Below are positions 11,992-31,316 of a stretch of 43,524 nt of DNA, piece after piece. The notes beneath the pieces are model-generated. The model was not told where the DNA came from. It searched no databases and saw only the letters and a list, made by a program, of their open reading frames with translations. The stretch comes from Acidobacteriota bacterium (GTDB lineage Bacteria; Acidobacteriota; Vicinamibacteria; Fen-336): NCBI GenBank assembly GCA_003223555.1, contig QHVM01000085.1, forward strand, positions 156,211-199,734. Reading direction: 5' to 3'. Every line of letters starts with the position of its first letter. The stretch's first letter is position 1. Both the position numbers and the translations under genes were made by a program.

Positions 11992-13155
11992 CTAGTCTGG
12001 CAACGCCTGCGGGGGCTTGTCAACGCCTTCCGGCGTTTCGGGGCCTGCGAGGCGGAAGCGCACCACCGAGCGATCGCGCATCCCGGCCACGACCGCGTCG
12101 CCGACGAGGATGGGCGGCGCGGCCAGCTCGGACGGCGTCTTCATGTCGCCCAGCCGGCGGCCGGTGCGGGCGTCGAAGCCCACCACGAAGCTCTCCTTCG
12201 GCCGGGTCCCGTAACAGGCGACGAGCACCGCTCCCTCCGCCACGAGCGGCGGGGAAAGCGGGCGCGACGGCAGGGGCGCGCGCCAGACGAGGTTCCCCCC
12301 GCCCTGTTTGAGGGCATAGAGCACGTCCTCGTGGCTGGCGAAGAGGACGGTGTCGCCCAGGAGGGTGGGCGGCGCCGGGACGTCGGCGCCGACCTTCCAC
12401 GTCCAGCGGGCCCGGCCCTGCTCGAGGCTCAGGGCCACGAACCGGCGATCGGCGGTGCCGAGCAGGACGCGCCGCCCGGTCTCGTCCACGGCGGGCCCGG
12501 CCTTCAGGGCCGCGCGAGTCGAGAAGGCCCACACCGCGTTCCCGGTGGCGGCGTCCCGGCAGCGAAGCGTGCCGTCCTGCTCGGGAACGAAGACCCATTT
12601 GCCCGCGGCCACCGGGGTTGCGCTGAGGCGGGGCGGCGGATCGGCCGTCCAACGCACGCTGCCGGTGGCCGCGTCGAGCGCCACCAGGCCCTCCCCGCCC
12701 ACGAGCACGGCGTCATCACCGAGGGCGGCGGGCAGGGCTCCGCCCACGCGGGTCTCCGTCTTCCACCGGGCGGAGCCGCTGGCCGGCGCCATCGCCCACA
12801 CGGTCCCGTCGGGCTCGCGCGCCACGAGCAGCCCCGGACGAGCCGACAGGGGCCCGGGCCGGTTCGCGACCGACCAGCGCTCGCGGCCCGTGCCGCCGTC
12901 GAGGCCGTGGACCGTGCCGTCCACCGTGGCCACGAACACGCGCGTTCCGTCGGTCGCCAGGGGCGGCTGGAAGGCCGGCCCCTCGAAGGGATCGCCGACC
13001 TGGGCGGTCCACTCGGTGCTGAGCGGAAAGATCGCCGGCGCCGCCGGAGCGCGTCGACGATGGAACACGCACGCCGCGACGGCGAGGGCGAGGACGAGGA
13101 GGAAAGCGGTCCGGGGCAAGAGACGGACTATAGCAGCGATATAATCCGCCGGCAT
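11992..13155 (-). CDS. PQQ-type beta-propeller lipoprotein (BamB-like)
   Basis: 387 residues from ATG 13155. Six or seven propeller blades are visible as repeats of 'DGTVHGLDGGTGRERW', 'DGTVWAMAPASGSARW', 'GLVALDAATGSVRW', 'DGTLRCRDAATGNAVW', 'ALSLEQGRARW' and 'VLYALKQGGGNLVW'. A lipobox-like A-V-A-A-C follows the signal core. BamB is the propeller partner of the BamA outer-membrane insertion machine, but other PQQ-repeat lipoproteins look alike, and no Bam gene is nearby. A TTG at 13119 is an attractive alternative start: it gives a compact 'PRTAFLLVLALAVAAC' signal and lies seven bases after a TATAGT box. It is divergent from guaA. Confidence 0.75.
   Translation of the reverse strand: MPADYIAAIVRLLPRTAFLLVLALAVAACVFHRRRAPAAPAIFPLSTEWTAQVGDPFEGPAFQPPLATDGTRVFVATVDGTVHGLDGGTGRERWSVANRPGPLSARPGLLVAREPDGTVWAMAPASGSARWKTETRVGGALPAALGDDAVLVGGEGLVALDAATGSVRWTADPPPRLSATPVAAGKWVFVPEQDGTLRCRDAATGNAVWAFSTRAALKAGPAVDETGRRVLLGTADRRFVALSLEQGRARWTWKVGADVPAPPTLLGDTVLFASHEDVLYALKQGGGNLVWRAPLPSRPLSPPLVAEGAVLVACYGTRPKESFVVGFDARTGRRLGDMKTPSELAAPPILVGDAVVAGMRDRSVVRFRLAGPETPEGVDKPPQALPD
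13127..13132 (-). promoter_or_regulatory. -10 box TATAGT, possible bamB-like promoter
   Basis: TATAGT on the minus strand ends seven bases before the TTG at 13119. If used, it would give a leaderless mRNA and a TTG start for the propeller lipoprotein. Confidence 0.35.
13140..13145 (+). promoter_or_regulatory. -10 box TATAAT for the guaA leader
   Basis: A perfect TATAAT lies 11 bases before the GTG of the first leader ORF at 13157. No convincing -35 hexamer is seen. The box overlaps the start region of the divergent propeller gene, so the two promoters are back to back. Confidence 0.5.
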
Positions 13156-13156
13156 C

Positions 13157-13255
13157 GTGAGACCCGCAGGCGGCGTCTCCCTGGCGTCCGAAGCGGGATC
13201 CATTCCCGCGAGGACGACATTGGCGAAGGGCGCGCCGCCGAGGACGCGAGAATGA
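13157..13255 (+). CDS. Leader ORF 1 upstream of guaA (32 codons)
   Basis: GTG-started small ORF covering the first 98-bp repeat copy. The encoded peptide begins [15 protein letters not shown] and ends P-P-R-T-R-E. Its TGA overlaps the ATG of leader ORF 2 (ATGATGA). It lies directly downstream of a TATAAT box. It may be a translated leader or simply the by-product of a repeat insertion; there is no run of regulatory codons as in amino-acid attenuators. Confidence 0.3.
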
Positions 13256-13363
13256 TGAGACCCGCAGGCGGCGTCTCCCTGGCGTCCGAAGCGGGATCCA
13301 TTCCCGCGAGGACGACATTGGCGAAGGGCGCGCCGCCGAGGACGCGAGAATGATGAGACCCGC
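13158..13363 (+). repeat. Tandem 98-bp direct repeat, two full copies plus 10 bp
   Basis: Copy 1 is 13158-13255 and copy 2 is 13256-13353, identical base for base. The first ten bases (TGAGACCCGC) recur at 13354-13363, inside guaA. Each unit contains the hairpin GCGGGA-TCCAT-TCCCGC and wider complementary arms GGCGGCG/CGCCGCC, which suggests a mobile palindromic element that has duplicated. Because the unit ends in ATGA, each copy re-creates a stop-start overlap. Confidence 0.95.
13252..13353 (+). CDS. Leader ORF 2 upstream of guaA (33 codons)
   Basis: ATG-ATG-started copy of leader ORF 1, carried on the second 98-bp repeat. Its TGA (13351-13353) overlaps the first ATG of guaA at 13350, so ribosomes ending here could restart on guaA. 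The peptide is the same as ORF 1 apart from the start. The coding status is uncertain. Confidence 0.3.
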
Positions 13364-14927
13364 GGACCAGGATTCAAGCGTGGCTCCTTCCCCCCGCGAC
13401 ACCGTCGCCATCCTCGATTTCGGCTCCCAGTACACCCAGCTCATCGCCCGGCGGCTGCGCGAGCTGCAGGTCTACTCCGAGATCCTGCCCCCCGGCACCA
13501 GGGCGGCCGAGCTGCGCCGGCGTCCGTTGCGCGGCGTCGTGCTGTCCGGGGGGCCCGACAGCGTCTACGCCAAGGGCGCGCCGCACTGCGACCCGCGGAT
13601 CTTCGACCTGGACGTCCCCGTGCTCGGCATCTGCTACGGCATGCAGCTCATGAGCCACGTACTCGGCGGCGACGTGAAGCCGGCCGGCCGCCGCGAGTAC
13701 GGCCATGCCTCATTCGACGCGCACGACAACTCCCCCCTGCTGCGGGGATTCGAGACGCCGGCCCGGGTGTGGATGAGCCACGGTGACTCGATCCTCCAGC
13801 CGCCGGCCGGCTTCGCGGTGATCGGGTCGAGCAGCACCAACCCGGTGGCCGCCATCGAGAACCGCCAGCGCGCGCTCTTCGGCATCCTCTTCCACCCGGA
13901 GGTCAACCACACCGAGCACGGCCTCACCGTGCTCGGCAACTTCCTCGACATCTGCGGATGCAAGCGCGACTGGAACGCCGCCTCGTTCGTCGAGGAGACG
14001 GTGGGGAAGATCCGCTCCGTCACCGGCGACGACGGACGGGTGATCTGCGCCCTGTCGGGCGGGGTCGACTCGGCGGTGACCGCGGTCCTCGTCCAGCGCG
14101 CCATCGGCGGCCGGCTGACCTGCGTCTTCGTCGACAACGGCCTCCTGCGCAAGGACGAGGCGCTGCAGGTGCGCAAGCGCTTCGCCGAGCGGCTCCGGTT
14201 GAAGGTCGTGTTCGTGGACGCGTCCCGCCGCTTTCTCGGCAAGCTGGGGGGGGTCAGCGACCCCGAGCGCAAGCGCAAGATCATCGGCCGGGAGTTCATC
14301 GAGGTCTTTCGCTCCGCCTCGCGCAAGGCCGGCCGGGCGCGCTTCCTCGCCCAGGGCACGCTCTACCCCGACGTCATCGAGTCGACCTCGGTCCGCGGGC
14401 CTTCCGTCGTCATCAAGAGCCATCACAACGTGGGCGGGCTCCCGCGCCGGCTGGGGTTCAAGCTCATCGAGCCGCTGCGGGAGCTGTTCAAGGACGAGGT
14501 GCGCCTGGTCGGCCTCCGCCTCGGGCTCGACGAGGAGTTCGTCTTCCGCCAGCCATTCCCCGGCCCCGGCCTCGCGGTGCGCTGCCTCGGTCCGGTCAGC
14601 CGTGACCGCCTCGACATCCTGCGGGAGGCCGACGACATCCTGGTGAAGGAGATCAAGGCCGCCGGCCTCTATCGCGCGCTGTGGCAGTCCTTTGCCGTCC
14701 TCCTGCCGGTGCGCTCGGTGGGCGTGATGGGCGACGACCGCACCTACCAGTACGCGCTGGCCATCCGGGCCGTCGAATCTGCCGACGGCATGACCGCCGA
14801 CTGGGCCCGCCTGCCCCACGACCTGCTGGCCCGCGTCTCGAGCCGGATCGTCAACGAGGTGCGCGGCGTCAACCGCGTGGTCTTCGACATCTCCAGCAAG
14901 CCCCCGTCGACGATCGAGTGGGAGTAG
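13350..14927 (+). CDS. guaA: GMP synthase (glutamine-hydrolysing)
   Basis: 525 residues, normal length. It aminates XMP to GMP with glutamine and ATP, the last step of GMP synthesis. The class I glutamine amidotransferase domain comes first, with nucleophile Cys95 ('GICYGMQ'), His182 and Glu184 ('[11 protein letters not shown]'). The ATP pyrophosphatase domain has the P-loop '[12 protein letters not shown]' (about 234-245), then '[11 protein letters not shown]' and '[11 protein letters not shown]'. The C-terminal dimerisation domain includes '[12 protein letters not shown]' and ends 'PPSTIEWE', the usual terminus. Two adjacent ATGs (13350, 13353) are possible starts; no independent Shine-Dalgarno is seen, and the start overlaps leader ORF 2. 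Residues 1-15 are encoded partly by the repeat edge. Confidence 0.97.
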
Positions 14928-14935
14928 GCCCTCCG

Positions 14936-15119
14936 GCCTCTTAACGCAGAGGACGCAGAGGGGAACAGAGAGGACGCAGAGGAAGGAAGAAAACGGACCT
15001 CCCTTGCGGCAAAGAGTGTCAGAATGTCTTTTTCGAAGGCAGGCTCTTGCGTGATCTTCTTTTCTTTTGATCCTCTGCGTCCTCTCCGTTCGTTCTCTGC
15101 GGCCTCTGCGTTGAGAGGC
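14936..15119. repeat. Palindromic intergenic element, copy A (guaA-dnaE)
   Basis: 184 bp with imperfect terminal inverted repeats: GCCTCTTAACGCAGAGG at the left end and the complement of GCCTCTCAACGCAGAGG at the right. Each arm holds further GAGGACGCAGAG-like repeats, so the RNA would fold into a long hairpin. The central part is T-rich and different from the other copies. The right end (GAGAGG) lies three bases from the dnaE ATG and may act as its Shine-Dalgarno. No ORF or transposase is inside. Confidence 0.9.
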
Positions 15120-15121
15120 TA

Positions 15122-18100
15122 ATGGCGAGCGCTCCGGAGTTCGTCCACCTCCATCTCCACTCCGAGTACAGCCTCCTCGACGGTGCCTGCCACATCGACG
15201 AGCTGGTCGAGCAGGCGGCCAGGACGGGGATGAAGGCCATGGCCCTCACCGACCACGGCAACATGTTCGGGGCGGTGGCGTTCCACGACGCCTGCCTGGC
15301 CCGGGGCCTCAAGCCCATCCTCGGGTGCGAGATCTACGTGGCCACGGGCAGCCGGCACGACCGCTCGGCGGCCGGGATCCAGGAGGCCTACAACCACATG
15401 ACGCTGCTCGCCGCGGACGAGGCGGGCTACCACAACCTGGTGAAGCTCGTGTCCATCGGCTACATGGAGGGCTTCTACCACCGGCCGCGCATCGACAAGG
15501 AGCTGCTGGGCAGGCACGCCACCGGCCTCATCGGCCTCTCCGGCTGCCTGAGCAGCGAGATCGCCACCCACCTGCGCGCCGGCGCGGAGTCGGCGGCGCT
15601 GCAGGCGGTCGGCGAGTTCTCGGAGCTGTTCGGCAAGGACCGCTTCTACCTCGAGCTGATGGACCACGGGCTGGAGGAGCAGCGGCGCGTCAACCAGGGG
15701 CTCGTCCGCCTCCACCGGCGGACCGGGCTGCCGCTCGTCGCCACCAACGACACCCACTACCTGCGCAAGGAGGACCACCAGGCCCACGACGTGCTGCTCG
15801 CCATCGGCTCGGGCAAGAAGGTCAGCGATACCGACCGGCTCCGCTTCGACGCCGAGGAGTTCTACCTGAAGACGGCGGAGGAGATGGCGCGGGTCTTCCC
15901 GGACCGGCCCGAGGCGCTGGCGAGCACGGTGAAGATCGCCGAGATGTGCTCGTTCCAGCTCAAGGGCGCCGCCTCGCTGCCCGCCTTCGCCGTGCCGGCC
16001 GGCTTCACGGTGGACGGCTACTTCGAGAAGGTGACCCGCGACGGCTTCGCCGAGCGGCGGCGCGCGCTGGAGCCGCGGGCGGCGTCGGGGCGGCTGCGCT
16101 CCCCGGTCCCCGTCTACGAAGAGCGGCTGGACAAGGAGATCGGCGTCATCCGGCGCGTCGGTTTCGCCGGCTACTTCCTGATCGTCTGGGACTTCATCCG
16201 CTATGCCCGCGAGCAGGGAATCCCGGTGGGTCCCGGTCGCGGCTCGGCGGCGGGGAGCCTGGTCGCGTACTCGCTGCGCATCACCGACCTCGACCCGATC
16301 GAGCACGACCTCATCTTCGAGCGCTTCCTCAACGAGGAGCGGATCAGCCCGCCCGACATCGACATCGACTTCTGCGAGAACCGGCGGGGCGAGGTGATCG
16401 AGTACGTCACGCGGAAGTACGGCCGGGAGAACGTGGCCCAGATCATCACCTTCGGGACGATGAAGGCGAAGGCCGTGGTGCGCGACGTCGGCCGCGTGCT
16501 CGACATGAGCTACGCCGAGGTGGACCGCATCGCCAAGATGATCCCCTTTGACCTCAAGATGACGCTCGACAAGGCCCTCGAGGAGTCTCCTCCGCTGAAG
16601 GAGGCCTACCAGAAGGACGCCCGGGTGAGGGAGCTGGTCGACATCTCGCGCCGGCTCGAGGGCACGACCCGGCACGCCTCCACCCACGCCGCGGGGGTGG
16701 TGATCGCTCCCCGTCCCCTCACCGAGTTCGTGCCGCTGGCCTCCTTCAAGGGGAACACGAACGAGGTCACCACCCAGTACGACATGCACGGGGTGGAGCG
16801 CATCGGCCTGCTCAAGATGGACTTCCTCGGCCTGCGCACGCTGACCCTCATCGACAACTGCGTGAAGATGATCGAGGCCCAGACCGGCGTCCGCATCGAG
16901 CCGGACAAGATCCCCCTCGACGACGCCAAGACGTACGAGATGTTCACCGCCGGCAAGACCAGCGGCCTCTTCCAGTTCGAGTCGGACGGCATGCGGGACA
17001 TCCTGCGCCGCTTCCGGCCCGACCAGCTCGAGCACCTCACCGCCCTCAACGCGCTCTACCGGCCCGGCCCGATGCAGATGATCGACGACGTCATCCGGCG
17101 CCGGCACGGCCAGACCAAGGTCAGCTACGAGCACCCGCAGCTGGAGCCGATCCTTTCCGCCACCTACGGGGTGATGGTCTACCAGGAGCAGGTGATGCAG
17201 ATCGCCTCCGCCCTCGCCGGCTTCACGCTCGGCGAGGCCGACATCCTGCGCAAGGCCATGGGCAAGAAGAAGGCGGAGGTCATGGCCGCCCAGATGGAGA
17301 AGTTCCTCCAGGGCTGCGTGCGCCACGGCGTGCCCGCGCGGACGGCGAAGAAGATCTGGGACCACATGGAGCAGTTCGCCGGCTACGGCTTCAACAAGTC
17401 CCACTCCGCCGCCTACGCGTGGCTCGCCTACCAGACGGCCTACTTCAAGGCCAACTACCCGGCGTTCTTCATGGCCGCCCTCCTCACCTCCGAGCGAGCC
17501 AACACCGACAAGATGGTCCAGTACATCGGGGAATGCCGGGACATGGGTATCCGGGTGCTCCCGCCCGACGTGAACCAGTCCGATATCTACTTCAGCGTCG
17601 TCGGCGACTCCATACGCTTCGGGCTGGCGGCGATCAAGAATGTCGGCGAGGGCGCCGTGGAGGCCGTGCTGTCGGCCCGGCGCGGGGGGTCTGGGGGACG
17701 CAGCGCGTCCCCCGGCTTGACGGGCGGAGCGCCGGATTCACTCCGGCGCGGAGCGAAGACCGGGCCCTTCGCCTCGCTCTTCGACTTCTGCGAGCGGGTG
17801 GACCTGCGGGCCGTCAACCGGCGGGTGGTGGAGAGCTTCATCAAGAGCGGCTCGTTCGATTCGCTCGATCCGCGCCGGGCGGCGCTCTTCTCGGCGATCG
17901 ACCGCGCGATGGACGCCGGCCAGAAGCTCCAGCGCGACCGCGAGCAGGGCCAGTCGAGCCTCCTCGGCATGCTGGGCGCGGCCGAGCCGCAGGCCGGGGG
18001 GGCCGGCGCCGAGCGCATCCGCGACGTGCCGGACTGGGGGGAGGGCGAGCGGCTCGGTTACGAGAAGGAGTCGCTCGGCTTCTTCATCACCGGGCACCCG

Positions 18101-18695
18101 CTGGAGCGCTACCGCGCCGAGCTGGAGCAGTGGGCCACGGCGACCACCGGCCGGCTGGCCGAGATGGCCGAGCGGGAGGTGAGCGTGGGCGGGATTATCG
18201 CCGCCCTGCGCCTCATCAAGACGAAGAAGGGCGACCGCATGGCCTCGTTCGTCCTCGAGGACCTGGACGGGGGTGCGGAGGCTCTCGTCTTCCCGGACAC
18301 CTACAAGAAGGTGGCCGGCCGGCTGGCCGAGGACCAGGTGGTCCTCGTCAAGGGCAAGGCCGAGGTACCCGAGGAGGGCAAGCCGCGCCTCCTGGTGAGC
18401 GAGGTCCTGCCGCTCGAGCAGGCCAAGCTGGCCGAAGCCCGCTACGTCACGATCCGCGTGCCGATGCCGCAGTGGGACCGGGAGAAGGGGGAGCGGTTGC
18501 GGGAGATCCTGGGCGCCCACAAGGGCGACTGCCCGGTGACCCTCGAGATCGTCCGCCCCGGCGAGTTCGCGGTGGCGGTCGCTCCCAGCTCGCTCTACCG
18601 CGTCCGGCCCGATGCGACGCTGCGCGACGAGGTCGAGGCGCTCCTGGGCCCGGGAGCCCTGGTGCTCGCCCGGACCAACGGCGCGGACCGCGACC

Positions 18696-18703
<8 letters not shown>
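15122..18703 (+). CDS. dnaE: DNA polymerase III subunit alpha
   Basis: 1193 residues, the replicative polymerase subunit. The N-terminal PHP domain shows 'HLHLHSEYSLLDGA' and 'ALTDHGNMFG'. The polymerase core has 'VGPGRGSAAGSLVAY' and the catalytic aspartates in 'PPDIDIDFCE' (about residues 410-416). 'HASTHAAGVVI', 'LNALYRPGPM' and 'FNKSHSAAYA' are further Pol III motifs. Helix-hairpin-helix ('AIKNVGEGAVEAVL') and OB-fold ('VGGIIAALRLIKTKKGDRMA') regions follow. Between 'AVLSARR' and 'GPFASLFDFCERVDLRAVNRR' there is an unusual in-frame Gly/Ser/Arg-rich insertion of about 25 residues (about 856-880), encoded by a double-hairpin DNA element. The 3' end overlaps accA by eight bases. Confidence 0.97.
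17689..17762. repeat. REP-like double-hairpin element inserted in frame in dnaE
   Basis: Two perfect hairpins stand side by side. GGGGGACGC (17693-17701) pairs with GCGTCCCCC (17705-17713) around a three-base loop. GCGCCGGA (17729-17736) pairs with TCCGGCGC (17742-17749) around a five-base loop. The segment translates without stops and is absent from the expected protein alignment at this point, judging by the flanking family motifs. Confidence 0.75.
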
Positions 18704-26629: not shown

Positions 26630-27655
26630 GTGGCGCGGCGCGCGCGTCCAGCGCCCGGGCCGTCGGTCGCGGTGCGGGAGCTGCTCCAGCAGGGGGGCGA
26701 AGGTCTGTCCCTGCGGCTGGTGGCCGGGCGGGCCGGTCTCGACCGCACCCTCCACCTCTCGCGGGTCCAGCGCCCGGGCCTGGCCCTCACCGGGTTCACC
26801 GACTACCTGCGCTACGGCCGGGTGCAGATCATCGGCGGCAGCGAGGTCACCTACCTGCGCACCCTTGCTCCCCGCCGGCGGGCCTCGATCCTCTCCCGCC
26901 TTGCCCGCACCCACGTGAGCTGCTTCGTGGTGACCAAGGGCTTGGCCCCGCCTCCCGAGCTGCGGGCGGAGGCGGAGGCCCGCGGCATCCCCGTCCTGGC
27001 CACGCCGCTGGAGTCGACGCGGTTCATCAAGCAGCTCACCGCCTTCCTCGACGAGCGGCTGGCCGAGCGCATCCACCTGCACTCGGTGCTGATGGACGTC
27101 TTCGGCCTCGGCGTCCTCATCGTGGGGGAGAGCGGCATCGGGAAGTCGGAGTGCGCCCTGGACCTCATCGACCGCGGCCACCGGCTGGTCTCCGACGACG
27201 TGGTGGAGATCAAGCGCATGTCCGACGCGCTCGTCGGCGCTTCCCCCGACCTCACGCGGTACCACATGGAGCTGCGGGGGCTGGGGGTGATCAACATCAA
27301 GGACCTGTACGGCGTTTCCTCGGTCCGCATGTCGAAGAAGGTGGAGCTGGTGGTGAGCCTGGAGCGGTGGGAGGCCGGCCGCGAGTACGACCGGCTCGGC
27401 CTGCGCGCGGAGCACTATGGGGTCCTCGGGGTGGAGCTGCCCCTGGTCCGCATGCCGGTCGCGCCGGGCCGCAACATCGCCATCCTGGTCGAGGTGGCGG
27501 CCCGCAACCAGCTCCTGAAGGCCCGGGGTTATGATGCGGCGCGGCGCTTCGCCGAACAGGTGGACGAGATGATCGGCACCGAAGGGGCCGGGGGCCACGT
27601 GCGCAAGGTCGCCGTGGCCCGGCGGCGCGCGCCGCGCAAGCGGGGGCATGCCTAG
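26630..27655 (+). CDS. hprK: HPr kinase/phosphorylase
   Basis: 341 residues. It phosphorylates HPr on Ser46 with ATP or pyrophosphate and removes it with phosphate. An N-terminal MurF-like domain (about 1-130) precedes the kinase domain with Walker A 'GESGIGKSECALDLI' (about 166-180), 'HRLVSDDVVEIKR' and the family signature 'ELRGLGVINIKDLYGVSSVR' (about 211-230). The C-terminus has 'MPVAPGRNIAILVEVAARNQLLK'. The N-terminal Arg-rich extension and the Lys/Arg-rich tail are lineage features. GTG 26630 has GAGG close upstream. The target Ser46 is present in the HPr gene 1.5 kb downstream. It overlaps rapZ by eight bases. Confidence 0.96.
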   Translation: MARRARPAPGPSVAVRELLQQGGEGLSLRLVAGRAGLDRTLHLSRVQRPGLALTGFTDYLRYGRVQIIGGSEVTYLRTLAPRRRASILSRLARTHVSCFVVTKGLAPPPELRAEAEARGIPVLATPLESTRFIKQLTAFLDERLAERIHLHSVLMDVFGLGVLIVGESGIGKSECALDLIDRGHRLVSDDVVEIKRMSDALVGASPDLTRYHMELRGLGVINIKDLYGVSSVRMSKKVELVVSLERWEAGREYDRLGLRAEHYGVLGVELPLVRMPVAPGRNIAILVEVAARNQLLKARGYDAARRFAEQVDEMIGTEGAGGHVRKVAVARRRAPRKRGHA

Positions 27656-28553
27656 CCGGAAGCGAGGGAAGGCGGCCGGGCCCCGGCCGGCCCGCGAGCC
27701 CCGCATCCTGATCATCACTGGCCTCTCCGGCTCGGGCAAGACGCATGTGGCCCGCGCGCTGGAGGACATCGGGTGGTTCTGCGTCGACAACCTTCCCTCC
27801 GCCCTCATCCCGCGCTTCGCCGAGCTGATCCGCGGCTCGGAGGAGCTCCGGCGCTCCGCGCTCGTGGTGGACATGCGGGAGCGGGAGTTCCTGAAGCAGT
27901 TCCCCCACGTGTTCCGGCAGCTGCGCGGCCGGGGCGGCCTGGGGGTGAGCCTGCTCTTCCTGGAGGCGGGCGAGAAGGCGCTGGTGCGGCGCTTCAGCGA
28001 GACCCGGCGTCCCCATCCCCTGGCCATCAACCAGCCGCCCATCGAGGGGATCCGCGAGGAGCGCGAGGCCCTGAAGCCGATCCGCAAGATGGCCGACCTC
28101 ATCCTGGACACCTCGGACTACACCGTCCACCAGCTCCGCGACTACATCCGGGAGCACTACGACGTGCGCCACGAGGCGGCCCCGCTGGTGCTCTCCGTGA
28201 TGTCGTTCGGCTACAAGTTCGGCGTGCCGTCGGAGGCCGACCTCGTGTTCGACGTTCGTTTCCTCCCCAACCCGAACTTCGTGCCATCCTTGAAGGCGCT
28301 GACGGGGAACCACGCCCCGGTGATCCGCTATATGCGCCGGCAGAAGGACACCGCCGTCTTCCTCGACAAGCTGCAGGCCTTCCTCGCCTACGTGATCCCC
28401 CGCTACATCAAGGAGGGGAAGAGCTACCTCACGATCGGCATCGGCTGCACGGGCGGCCGGCACCGCTCGGTGATGATCGCCAACGCGCTGGCCGAGGTGC
28501 TCGGGGCCCAGGGCCACCCGGTGCGGGTCCGCCACCGGGACCTGCGACAGTAG
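27648..28553 (+). CDS. rapZ: RNase adapter RapZ (YvcJ-family nucleotide-binding protein)
   Basis: 301 residues. P-loop NTPase with Walker A 'GLSGSGKTH' (residues 25-33), 'DIGWFCVDNLP', Walker B-like 'ALVVDMRER' and the RapZ C-terminal domain with 'VMSFGYKFGVPSEADLVFDVRFLPNP' and 'GIGCTGGRHRSVMIA'. In E. coli RapZ senses glucosamine-6-phosphate and brings RNase E to sRNA GlmZ; in other bacteria it has linked roles in cell envelope control. The gene neighbours (rpoN, hpf, PTS) are the usual ones. It overlaps hprK by eight bases and is followed by palindromic element B. Confidence 0.96.
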   Translation: MPSRKRGKAAGPRPAREPRILIITGLSGSGKTHVARALEDIGWFCVDNLPSALIPRFAELIRGSEELRRSALVVDMREREFLKQFPHVFRQLRGRGGLGVSLLFLEAGEKALVRRFSETRRPHPLAINQPPIEGIREEREALKPIRKMADLILDTSDYTVHQLRDYIREHYDVRHEAAPLVLSVMSFGYKFGVPSEADLVFDVRFLPNPNFVPSLKALTGNHAPVIRYMRRQKDTAVFLDKLQAFLAYVIPRYIKEGKSYLTIGIGCTGGRHRSVMIANALAEVLGAQGHPVRVRHRDLRQ

Positions 28554-28577
28554 CTCATGACACGTCGGCAGTGGCCT

Positions 28578-28698
28578 TTTAACGCAGAGGACGCAGAGGG
28601 AACGGAGAGGACGCGGAGACACAAGAGGAATAGGACATGATTCTCCGTTCTCTGCGTCCTCGGGCTCGTCTTGCCATCTCTGCGACCTCTGCGTTGAA
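28578..28698. repeat. Palindromic intergenic element, copy B (rapZ-EIIA)
   Basis: 121 bp, the shortest copy. The left arm starts TTTTAACGCAGAGGACGC, and the right arm ends CCTCTGCGTTGAA. The inner repeats GGAGAGGACGCGGAG and CTCCGTTCTCTGCG are partly complementary. It ends 21 bases before the EIIA start. Confidence 0.88.
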
Positions 28699-28719
28699 GA
28701 GTCCGTCCGGAGCGAAGGC

Positions 28720-29115
28720 ATGATTGGAATAGTGGTCGTGACGCACGGGCAGCTGGCGGGGGAGCTGGTGAATGCCGCCCGCACCATCGTGGGGGAAATC
28801 CCGCGCATCGCGGCGGTTTCCATCGGATGGAGCGACGAGGTGACGGCGGCCCGGGACGCCATCGCCCACGCGGTGGCGGAGGTGGGCGAGGAGGCCCTCA
28901 TCCTGACCGACATGTTCGGGGGAACGCCGACCAACGTCAGCCTGCCCTTCCTCTCGCCGCGGGTGGAGATCGTCACCGGGGTGAACCTGCCCATGCTCAT
29001 CAAGCTCACGTCGCTGAGGGACGGCAAGCTGGCGGAAGTGGCCCGGGCGGTGCGCGAGCAGGGCAAGGACGCGATCTACGTGGCGAGCGAGGTGCTGGAG
29101 AAGAAGCCTTCGTGA
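28720..29115 (+). CDS. PTS mannose-type EIIA domain protein
   Basis: 131 residues, the standard single-domain IIA-Man fold. The phosphorylated histidine is His9 in 'VVTHGQLAGEL', and 'LILTDMFGGTPTNVS' (about 61-75) is the second family motif. It receives phosphate from HPr. No IIB, IIC or IID gene lies in the window, so a regulatory role, rather than sugar uptake, is inferred. ATG 28720 has GGAG eight bases upstream. Its stop overlaps the HPr start (GTGA). Confidence 0.93.
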   Translation: MIGIVVVTHGQLAGELVNAARTIVGEIPRIAAVSIGWSDEVTAARDAIAHAVAEVGEEALILTDMFGGTPTNVSLPFLSPRVEIVTGVNLPMLIKLTSLRDGKLAEVARAVREQGKDAIYVASEVLEKKPS

Positions 29116-29381
29116 CCACGCGCGAGGTGCGGATCCGCAACCCGCTGGGCCTGCACGCCCGGGCCGCCGCCCGCTTCGTGCACACCGCCAGCCGGTTCCG
29201 CTCCCGCGTGACCGTCAGCCGCAGCGGCAAGAGCATGGACGGCAAGTCGATCCTGGGCATCCTGCTCCTGGCCGCCTCGCAAGGCACGCTGCTGCGCGTG
29301 GTCGCGGAGGGCGAGGACGAGGCAGCCGCCGTCGACGCCCTCACCGCCCTGGTCGAAGGCGGCTTCGGGGAGGACGCGTGA
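29112..29381 (+). CDS. ptsH: Phosphocarrier protein HPr
   Basis: 89 residues. His15 in 'NPLGLHARAAARFV' takes phosphate from EI. Ser46 in 'DGKSILGILLL' fits the HprK target exactly, so both phosphorylation sites are kept. The C-terminal helix 'DEAAAVDALTALVEGG' is usual. The GTG start overlaps the EIIA stop. It is separated from ptsI by palindromic element C rather than directly joined as in most genomes. Confidence 0.95.
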   Translation: MTTREVRIRNPLGLHARAAARFVHTASRFRSRVTVSRSGKSMDGKSILGILLLAASQGTLLRVVAEGEDEAAAVDALTALVEGGFGEDA

Positions 29382-29403
29382 GGCGCCGCAAGGACCGGGG
29401 CTC

Positions 29404-29547
29404 TTAACGCAGAGGTCGCAGAGAACGAACAGAGAGGACTCGGAGGAGGGAAATGATGAAGACGAAGGAACGGAAGAAGAAGACCAGATACGGTCCCTCT
29501 TCGTATCTCTGCGTCCTCTCCGTTCTCTCTGCGTCCTCTGCGTTGAA
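29404..29547. repeat. Palindromic intergenic element, copy C (ptsH-ptsI)
   Basis: 144 bp. The left arm is TTAACGCAGAGGTCGCAGAG; the right arm ends GCGTCCTCTGCGTTGAA. A purine-rich GAAGAAGAAG-like centre differs from the other copies. It ends 20 bases before the ptsI ATG and splits the ptsH-ptsI pair. Confidence 0.9.
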
Positions 29548-29567
29548 AGGCAATTGAGCGGTCGGCC

Positions 29568-31316
29568 ATGGAGCTGAAGGGGATCGGGGTCTCGCCCGGG
29601 GTGGCGATGGGTCAGGCCCTCGTGGTCGAGCGGGAGGCGGTCGCCGTCTTCCGCCTCCTGCTGGCTCCGGAAGCGGTGGAGGTGGAGGTCCAGCGCCTGA
29701 CCCGGGCCGTCGAGGCCTCGCAGAAGCAGCTGCTGGCCATCAAGGAGCGCCTGGCCAGGGAAGTGGGCGGCAGCCACGCCTACATCTTCGACGCCCACCT
29801 GCTGATGCTGGAGGACCCGCTGCTGCTCGACCGGGCGGTGACGGTCATCCGCGAGGACCACGTCAACGCCGAGTGGGCGCTGCGCACCGTGGCCGATCAG
29901 CTCCACGCGCTGTTCGACGAGTTCACCGACGCCTACCTGCGCGAGCGGAGCACCGACCTCGACGACGTGCTGGGCCGCGTCCAGATCAACCTCGGCGGCG
30001 CGGCCGACGCGCCCTCGCTGTCGCGCCTGCCCGGCAGCTTCGTGCTGGTCACCGAGGACCTCACGCCCTCCGAAGCCGCCGAGCTGGACTGGGAGCGCAT
30101 CCTGGCCGTGGCCATGGATGCCGGCTCGCCGACCCACCACACGGCCATCCTGGCCCGGTCGTTCGGCATCCCGGCGGTGGCCGGCCTTCAGGATGCGGTC
30201 CGCCGCGTGCCCCCGGGATCGCTGGTCGTCGTGGACGGGACCGGCGGCCGCCTGGTCGTCGAGCCCACCGCGCCCACGCTGGAAGGGTTCCGGGCCGTCC
30301 AGCAGCGCCACAAGCTGGAGGAGGAGCGGCTCCAGGCCACGAGCGCGCTGCCCGCGGTCACCCGGGACGGCGTGCGGGTGAGCCTCCAGGCCAACGTGGA
30401 GTTCCTCGACGAAGCCGACACGGCGCTCCTCTACGGCGCGGAAGGCATCGGACTCTTCCGCTCGGAGTACCTGCTGGGCCGATCGCGGGAATGGCCGGCG
30501 GAGAAGCGCCAGCTCGACGTCTACTGCCGGCTGGCGGAGCTCGTCCGGCCGCACGCCGTCACCGTACGCACCTGGGACGTGGGTCCCGAGGACCTGGCGC
30601 CGGGAGGCCCGACCAGCCCGAACCCCGCCCTCGGCGAGCGTTCGCTGCGCCTCTTGCGGCGCGCTCCCGAGGCGTTCCGCGGCCAGCTCCGCGCGCTGCT
30701 GCAGGCGGCCGCCCACGGAGCGCTGCGGATCATGTTCCCCTTCGTGTCGGGGCCGGCCGACTTCGAAGAGGCGCGGCAGCTGCTCGAGGAGGCCCGCCAG
30801 GAGCTGAGCCGCGACGGCCTTCCCTTCGGCGACAGGGTGCCGGTGGGCGTCACGATCGAGGTCCCGAGCGCCGCGATGACCGCCGACCTGCTCGCGTCCC
30901 GCGTCGACTTCTTCAGCGTGGGCACCAACGACCTCATCCAGTACCTGCTGGCGGTGGACCGGACCGATCCGCGGGTCTCGGCCCACTACCAGCCGCTCCA
31001 TCCGGCCGTGCTGCGGGCGGTGCGGGGGGTGGTGGAGGCGGCGGAACGGGTCGCGATCCCGGTCTCGGTCTGCGGCGAGATGGCCGCCGATCCGACCACC
31101 GCGCTCGTCCTCGTCGGCCTCGGCGTGAAGGAGCTGTCGATGAGCCCCGCCGCCATTCCGCGGGTCAAGGCCGCGCTCCGGGGCGCCTCGTTCGCCCGGC
31201 TCAAGGAGGTGGCCGAGGGCTGCCTCGCGCTTCCGAGCGCGCGCGAGATCGAGGCCCGGCTGCGGGCCGAGCTGTCGGCGGTCCTCGCGGCGGGCCCGGT
31301 GCTTCAGGGAGAATAG
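29568..31316 (+). CDS. ptsI: Phosphoenolpyruvate-protein phosphotransferase (enzyme I)
   Basis: 582 residues, usual length. It starts the phosphorelay by taking phosphate from PEP. The phospho-histidine is His191 in 'GSPTHHTAILARS'. PEP-site residues are kept: Arg in 'GLFRSEYL' and 'VRTWDVG', Glu in 'VTIEVPSA', Asn-Asp in 'VGTNDLIQY', Arg in 'VDRTDPR' and Cys in 'SVCGEMAADP'. One oddity: the near-universal 'GGDK' after 'RTxDxG' is replaced by 'GPEDLAPGG'. The N-terminal HPr-binding helices (about 35-140) look complete. ATG 29568 is used. The cupin gene follows by six bases. Confidence 0.95.
   Translation: MELKGIGVSPGVAMGQALVVEREAVAVFRLLLAPEAVEVEVQRLTRAVEASQKQLLAIKERLAREVGGSHAYIFDAHLLMLEDPLLLDRAVTVIREDHVNAEWALRTVADQLHALFDEFTDAYLRERSTDLDDVLGRVQINLGGAADAPSLSRLPGSFVLVTEDLTPSEAAELDWERILAVAMDAGSPTHHTAILARSFGIPAVAGLQDAVRRVPPGSLVVVDGTGGRLVVEPTAPTLEGFRAVQQRHKLEEERLQATSALPAVTRDGVRVSLQANVEFLDEADTALLYGAEGIGLFRSEYLLGRSREWPAEKRQLDVYCRLAELVRPHAVTVRTWDVGPEDLAPGGPTSPNPALGERSLRLLRRAPEAFRGQLRALLQAAAHGALRIMFPFVSGPADFEEARQLLEEARQELSRDGLPFGDRVPVGVTIEVPSAAMTADLLASRVDFFSVGTNDLIQYLLAVDRTDPRVSAHYQPLHPAVLRAVRGVVEAAERVAIPVSVCGEMAADPTTALVLVGLGVKELSMSPAAIPRVKAALRGASFARLKEVAEGCLALPSAREIEARLRAELSAVLAAGPVLQGE

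Follow-up and report, generated by a model that had tools for sequence, protein, structure and literature searches.

The window analysed here, a stretch of 43,524 nt from contig QHVM01000085.1 of an Acidobacteriota genome (GCA_003223555.1), contains three imperfect palindromes, designated copies A, B, and C. Together with the genes that flank them, they are arranged as follows:

13350..14927, strand +: guaA (GMP synthase; PF00117, PF00958), upstream of copy A
14935..15119, no strand: copy A, a long palindrome in the guaA-dnaE gap (185 bp with tips; core 14943-15112)
15122..18703, strand +: dnaE (DNA polymerase III alpha; PF07733, PF17657, PF02811), downstream of copy A
27648..28553, strand +: rapZ (PF03668, PF22740), upstream of copy B
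28573..28702, no strand: copy B, a palindrome between rapZ and the EIIA gene (130 bp with tips; core 28581-28695)
28720..29115, strand +: PTS EIIA gene (mannose type; PF03610), between copies B and C
29115..29381, strand +: ptsH (HPr; PF00381), upstream of copy C
29398..29551, no strand: copy C, a palindrome between ptsH and ptsI (154 bp with tips; core 29406-29544)
29568..31316, strand +: ptsI (enzyme I; PF02896, PF05524, PF00391), downstream of copy C

Copies B and C were found where a preliminary description of this DNA had placed them, and the lengths it gave (121 and 144 bp) fall between the lengths of the core and of the copy with its tips. Its further observations, that the three copies have common ends with unrelated centres and that they stop close before start codons, were borne out, with 2 nt between A and dnaE, 17 nt between B and the EIIA gene, and 16 nt between C and ptsI. 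On the other side, the copies begin 7, 19, and 16 nt after the stop codons of guaA, rapZ, and ptsH, respectively. The predicted fold of each copy was stronger than that of any of 200 dinucleotide shuffles, with z-scores of -8.92 (A), -5.95 (B), and -6.13 (C). No match to Rfam covariance models was found in the window at the gathering score, no intrinsic terminator-like site was seen at B or C, and BLAST searches of element B against collections of named plasmids and named phages returned no match in either. A tandem duplication of 98 nt, with 95% identity, was also observed at positions 13147-13342 of the window.

Copies A, B, and C are members of a repeat family that is abundant in the source genome (G000; 5.39 Mb, 151 contigs) and in a sister species of the same genus (G001), both of which are drafts in many contigs. 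Allowing up to one mismatch, 258 arm matches were found in G000, compared with 2 for a reversed control pattern, and 253 were found in G001. Stretches were fetched around arm matches (100 of the 258 match places in G000 were listed) and yielded 63 paired copies in 1.11 Mb of G000 and 26 in 0.47 Mb of G001, counts that are biased per megabase because the stretches were chosen by arm matches. The consensus of 124 arms begins with either GCC-TTTT or CAACGGATT and continues with AACGCAGAGGACGC(A/G)GAG(A/G)A, and conservation fades approximately 8 nt beyond the core; one copy near a locus end was dropped from the consensus and flank analyses, leaving 62 of the 63. As read from the sequence, the inner units repeat at steps of 9-10 nt, such that the arms consist of phased CGCAGAG heptamers. 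Core lengths range from 85 to 254 bp. Mosaic arms exist in the family, as in the right arm of copy A, where an outer GGCC unit is combined with an inner CGGAGAGG unit.

Among the 33 centres of at least 20 nt from the 63 copies, none of the 528 possible pairs were alike. With both arms read in one direction, position 10 carries A in one arm and T in the opposite arm in 27 of the 63 copies of G000, so the arms are mismatched there more often than chance would predict (14 of 63 matched vs. 21.4 expected, p 0.015). In duplex predictions restricted to copies of at least 90 bp, a copy's own arms paired no better than arms taken from other copies, either in G000 (-62.0 vs. -65.4 kcal/mol; 61 of 63 copies) or in G001 (-70.7 vs. 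-70.6 kcal/mol; 23 of 26 copies). The structure-preserving changes that the preliminary description had proposed to look for were thus not found, and the target-site duplications it had likewise suggested left no signal: direct repeats of at least 6 nt occurred in the flanks of 10 of 62 copies, compared with 9.6% in mismatched flanks, and the longest flank repeat was 4.53 for own flanks and 4.22 for mismatched flanks.

A home-made gene caller, for which known genes from the window served as the training set, placed 40 of the 63 copies of G000 in tandem gaps, 19 in convergent gaps, and 1 in a divergent gap; 2 copies fell within predicted ORFs and 1 at an edge. Element-free gene pairs numbered 644 tandem, 89 convergent, and 121 divergent. 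Most copies sit just after a stop codon. Where the gap would be long even without the element, the copy in most cases lies close behind the preceding gene's stop codon (L093, L144, L082, L142, L148, L138), with L074:1377 as an exception. In two other genomes, G293 and G033, placement behind stop codons was less tight, with 2 of 13 and 1 of 14 copies, respectively, in divergent gaps. The tetranucleotide CTAG, seen 39 times beside elements against 1.8 expected, was considered as a target motif and rejected, as by eye it seems to reflect TAG stop codons preceded by C. The placement of the family behind genes is as described for REPs, which, according to PMC3733652, lie within about 20 bp of the 3′ ends of genes and are transcribed.

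The other 12 genomes of the taxonomic family contained 0-10 arm matches with up to one mismatch, mostly near the control level. At the PTS locus of G001, an element is present in the gap between rapZ and the EIIA gene and none occurs between ptsH and ptsI, where the TAG stop codon is directly followed by TTG. No element was found in the former gap or after ptsH in ten family relatives (in two of these, the check after ptsH covered only 60 nt), a set that leaves out family genome G011 (L110) on account of its having the same coordinates as G013. Since nothing separates ptsH from ptsI in the sister species and the ten relatives lack the element after ptsH, copy C is an intruder between the two genes, as the preliminary description had proposed. 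That description had also named the pattern expected of old vertical inheritance, in which every distant relative would carry this element with an identical centre; the pattern was absent, as relatives outside the genus carry no element at sites B and C. Across the phylum, an exact arm match was found in 35 of 297 genomes, unevenly distributed (134 matches in G000, 58 in G243, 40 in G033), compared with a single match in total for the control pattern. Genomes differ in the spacer bases but retain the CGCAGAG heptamer, and a favoured spacer dinucleotide was suggested in several genomes when the matches listed were read by eye. An apparent case of a GG spacer, in G190, turned out to belong to another repeat of larger size, and only one paired element was found in that genome. 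The larger repeat (L348-L358) is approximately 355 bp long, has inverted ends (CCTGATTATCGGC / GCCGATAATCAGG), contains the heptamers, and shows 84-99% identity between copies; it is MITE-like and was probably active recently.

The sister genome is collinear with G000 over long stretches, with 76-91% nucleotide identity in most long blocks, which allowed the comparison of 23 orthologous sites bearing a copy in at least one of the two genomes. The element or its remains were present in the sister species at 17 of the 23, A and B included. The detector found 12 sites filled in both genomes and one more held a degenerate copy in both, giving 13 sites filled in each; the remaining classes, read by eye, were sites at which the second genome has an arm or a remnant together with other repeats (4 sites), an empty site in G001 (C, L142:4672, and L142:19395), other DNA in G000 (1 site), and a doubtful case (1 site). 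At the one site left (L093:14690 in G000, L284:6503 in G001), the left tip CAACGGACTCAACGC stands alone in G000 opposite a full copy in G001, and this remnant looks like a deletion scar.

At the 13 sites filled in both genomes, orthologous centres were more alike than non-orthologous ones (p 5e-5), and tip types agreed at 19 of the 21 ends typed in both genomes (for the other 5 of the 26 tip pairs, one genome gave no type). Site A gave a clear alignment of centres; at site B, where the copy of G001 has different arms, homology of the centres is only suggestive, as trimming left no scorable centre. The arms behaved differently from centres and tips. Arms at different sites were more alike within a genome than between genomes (label-swap p 0.001), and the nearest neighbour of an arm came from the same genome for 42 of the 52 arms at these sites. 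The inner unit CGGAGAGG was present in 11 of 13 copies in G000 vs. 1 of 13 in G001 (46 of 63 vs. 4 of 26 over all copies), and a common form of it is longer, by its sequence, than the unit of G001. A weak orthologous signal was left in the arms (identity of 0.72 vs. 0.66-0.69, p 4e-4 and 2e-3), which indicates that their overwriting is incomplete. This comparison shows that the insertions at most of the sites examined predate the split from the sister species, and that in each genome the arms have jointly shifted to a sequence of that genome's own, a change in which centres and tips took no part.

With A and B at the same sites in the sister species, and with homologous centres and tips and genome-specific arms over the sites filled in both, the observations point mainly to homogenisation of arms on old insertions. 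The preliminary description had left the choice between many independent insertions and conversion of the arms. Homogenisation of the arms is favoured at most sites, where centres and tips are related and arms are genome-specific, and insertion or excision also occurs; C, for instance, was either gained in this lineage or lost from the sister species. Copying of the arms alone fits best, since re-insertion would be expected to swap the centre as well, and parallel mutation is unlikely because a length change plus a substitution would be needed in dozens of loci. Short-tract gene conversion is the most likely process behind the homogenisation. We infer arm conversion as such from the comparison of sequences. 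Several points speak against this reading: the weak orthologous signal in the arms, the only suggestive centre homology at B, the insertion or deletion that site C requires, and an arm length of 20-45 nt, which is little for recombination by RecA. The looser placement in G293 and G033, the different repeat behind the G190 matches, and the 75 foreign loci with no inward partner also run counter to it. The arms would be copied between loci by ectopic conversion of short tracts, possibly with short, phased arms annealing during replication or repair, and copying confined to the arms would let the centres diverge site by site, leaving the same ends around different centres. A fresh copy such as C might occasionally enter via a step that acts in trans. 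In mRNA, the arms would form a long intercistronic hairpin that is tolerated behind genes and may serve as an RNase III-type processing site or an attenuation site, and placement behind genes could stem from the selective cost of disrupting promoters or coding regions. Taken in full, the view that the family consists of long, untagged, REP/BIME-like intergenic palindromes whose arms have been homogenised on old insertions by short-tract conversion has, in our estimation, an even chance of being correct.

Several of the observations would also suit a REPIN- or MITE-like miniature mobile element that is served by a transposase in trans and re-inserts into or over older copies, with arms of the currently active type. 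Such an element would account for the presence of C, L142:4672, and L142:19395 in G000 and their absence in G001, for the patchy occurrence in the phylum (35 of 297 genomes), for the paired arms found in 10 of 80 phage-labelled contigs among the matches listed, and for the near identity between copies of the ~355-bp heptamer-bearing repeat of G190. However, a survey of the Y1 transposase family (PF01797) gave 0 matches in the arm-rich genomes G000, G001, and G033, the flanks carry no target-duplication signal (10 of 62 copies vs. 9.6%), and centres are unlike in all 528 pairs but conserved between orthologs; a mobile element of this kind is rather unlikely.

Alternatively, the arms might be held alike by selection, if a sequence-specific protein bound them and a change in its preference carried all the sites along. 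The constancy of the CGCAGAG heptamer among spacer bases that vary between genomes would be in keeping with such a protein, as would the 9-10 nt phasing seen in the sequence, but the genome-specific inner unit joins a substitution with a change of length across dozens of loci, which is hard to achieve by parallel mutation, and no binding protein is known. We consider this explanation distinctly improbable, and give still less credence to a structured regulatory RNA (an attenuator, terminator, or processing site) selected for its fold. The latter would explain the strong hairpins predicted for A, B, and C and a placement like that of transcribed REPs (as described in PMC3733652), but it is at odds with own arms that pair no better than those of other copies in G000 and G001, with a position 10 that is mismatched more than expected (14 vs. 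21.4 of 63, p 0.015), and with the lack of an Rfam match in the window and of a terminator-like site at B and C. Since there is no Y1 transposase in G000, G001, or G033, no target duplication, and no better pairing between own arms, neither a RAYT-type REPIN nor fold-preserving selection is supported. Elements of the intervening-sequence type known from 23S rRNA were also considered and rejected, as neither of the 2 PF05635 genes in the genome is flanked by arms, and GxxExxY genes were discarded because PF13366 is absent.

Arms that stand alone are frequently joined to GC-rich palindromes of other families, three of which (alpha, beta, and gamma) were recognized in G000 (e.g., L071:15753, L090:8448, L134:9154, L146:7165, L081:880, L089:8193, and L095:7232). 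In the stretches of G000 examined, beta was joined to exactly one inward-facing arm in 7 of 7 cases and gamma to exactly one arm in 4 of 4; the single gamma of G001 was joined to both arms. Alpha mostly occurs alone; for one alpha motif, an arm is lacking at 40 of the 48 matches. At one orthologous site, two arms in G001 correspond to one arm plus beta in G000, and at another, two arms in G000 correspond to one arm plus alpha in G001. Such fusion among arms, alpha, beta, and gamma is BIME-like behaviour. To our knowledge, none of the alpha, beta, gamma, or arm motifs is a described BIME motif.

MITEs are short, non-autonomous elements with inverted ends; unlike these, the present family shows no target-duplication signal and has no common interior, and a survey confined to PF01797 brought up no parent transposon. 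The palindromic elements of Rickettsia (mentioned in PMC3733652) are inserted in frame inside genes. Some distant arm-bearing elements are read in frame in 3 ORFs with domain hits on both sides; the copies in the window are all intergenic. A tagged REP is a palindrome of 20-40 bp that carries an unpaired tag, GTAG or CGTC, at one of its ends, and untagged REP-like families exist (Di Nocera 2013, PMC3733652). Our family resembles REPs and REP dimers in being extragenic, palindromic, present in high copy number near the 3′ ends of genes in gaps of the tandem and convergent kind, unevenly spread among phyla, and, like the dimers, provided with variable spacers. It differs from tagged REPs, with units of 20-40 bp, in its core of 85-254 bp, in its genome-specific arms of phased CGCAGAG heptamers, and in the lack of a GTAG/CGTC foot in the 124-arm consensus. 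Two inverted arms and a spacer that form a hairpin as the repeated unit are shared with REPINs (Bertels and Rainey 2011, PMC3116915), but G000, G001, and G033 have no Y1 transposase (RAYT) and the centres are not common. With BIMEs (PMC2817692), mosaics built of REPs and further motifs, the family shares the fusion of its arms to other palindromic families (here alpha, beta, and gamma). By the tests run, the family acts like REP/BIME but is not a tagged REP, a RAYT-linked REPIN, or a MITE; it is long, untagged, and new, and a sequence-text search of open-licence literature found no description of the arm sequence. The two related genomes, with 13 shared sites at which centres and tips are homologous and arms have switched, make the question of gene conversion in REPs directly testable; a review by Higgins and co-workers from 1988 reportedly asks in its title whether REP-like repeats evolve in this way.

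An exact-pattern scan of 84,980 species, with one genome per species, identified at least 120 further loci. An inward-facing second arm lay within 300 bp at at least 45 of these, compared with 0 for the reversed pattern; no inward partner was found at 75 of the 120 loci listed, and with 15 fixed bases many single matches are expected by chance. By the titles of the entries, from which phyla were assigned, the 45 paired loci include Acidobacteria, Planctomycetes, Verrucomicrobia, Bacteroidetes (Saprospiraceae), Chloroflexi, Latescibacterota, and alpha-, beta-, gamma-, and deltaproteobacteria, with Chthoniobacter flavus, Ramlibacter, and Thiohalophilus among the isolates. A recurring partner gene beside the arms was sought and rejected; the largest group of shared ORFs covered 11 of the at least 120 loci and was taken, by its size, for a common gene family. 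The cross-phylum matches represent either one family by descent or a type that has arisen recurrently. That one arm type recurs across many phyla, in phage-labelled contigs, and in a few genes suggests a widespread class of repeat. We propose only tentatively, and with slightly more doubt than belief, that phased CGCAGAG palindromes form a cross-phylum class, present in phages and chromosomes behind genes or in frame at domain junctions, which spreads without RAYT, with arms rewritten in each host and centres that remain local.

The in-frame cases comprise a palindrome at L369:5869-5959 in the large subunit of a phage terminase, flanked by domain hits; one at L445:4425-4497 between the domain hits of a phage portal and Mu-F-like fusion, where the Pfam match to Mu-F is below cut-off and PHROGs supports it; and one at L245:6273-6426 in a bacterial DNA ligase D, again with domain hits on both sides. 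The scan of viral sequences gave at least 120 rows, of which the 80 listed were examined. Two phage-labelled contigs were dense in the arm motif, namely IMGVR_UViG_3300024287_000138 (L408, L423), with at least 9 exact matches, and IMGVR_UViG_3300050015_000339 (L375, L447), with at least 6, nearly all of them on one strand.
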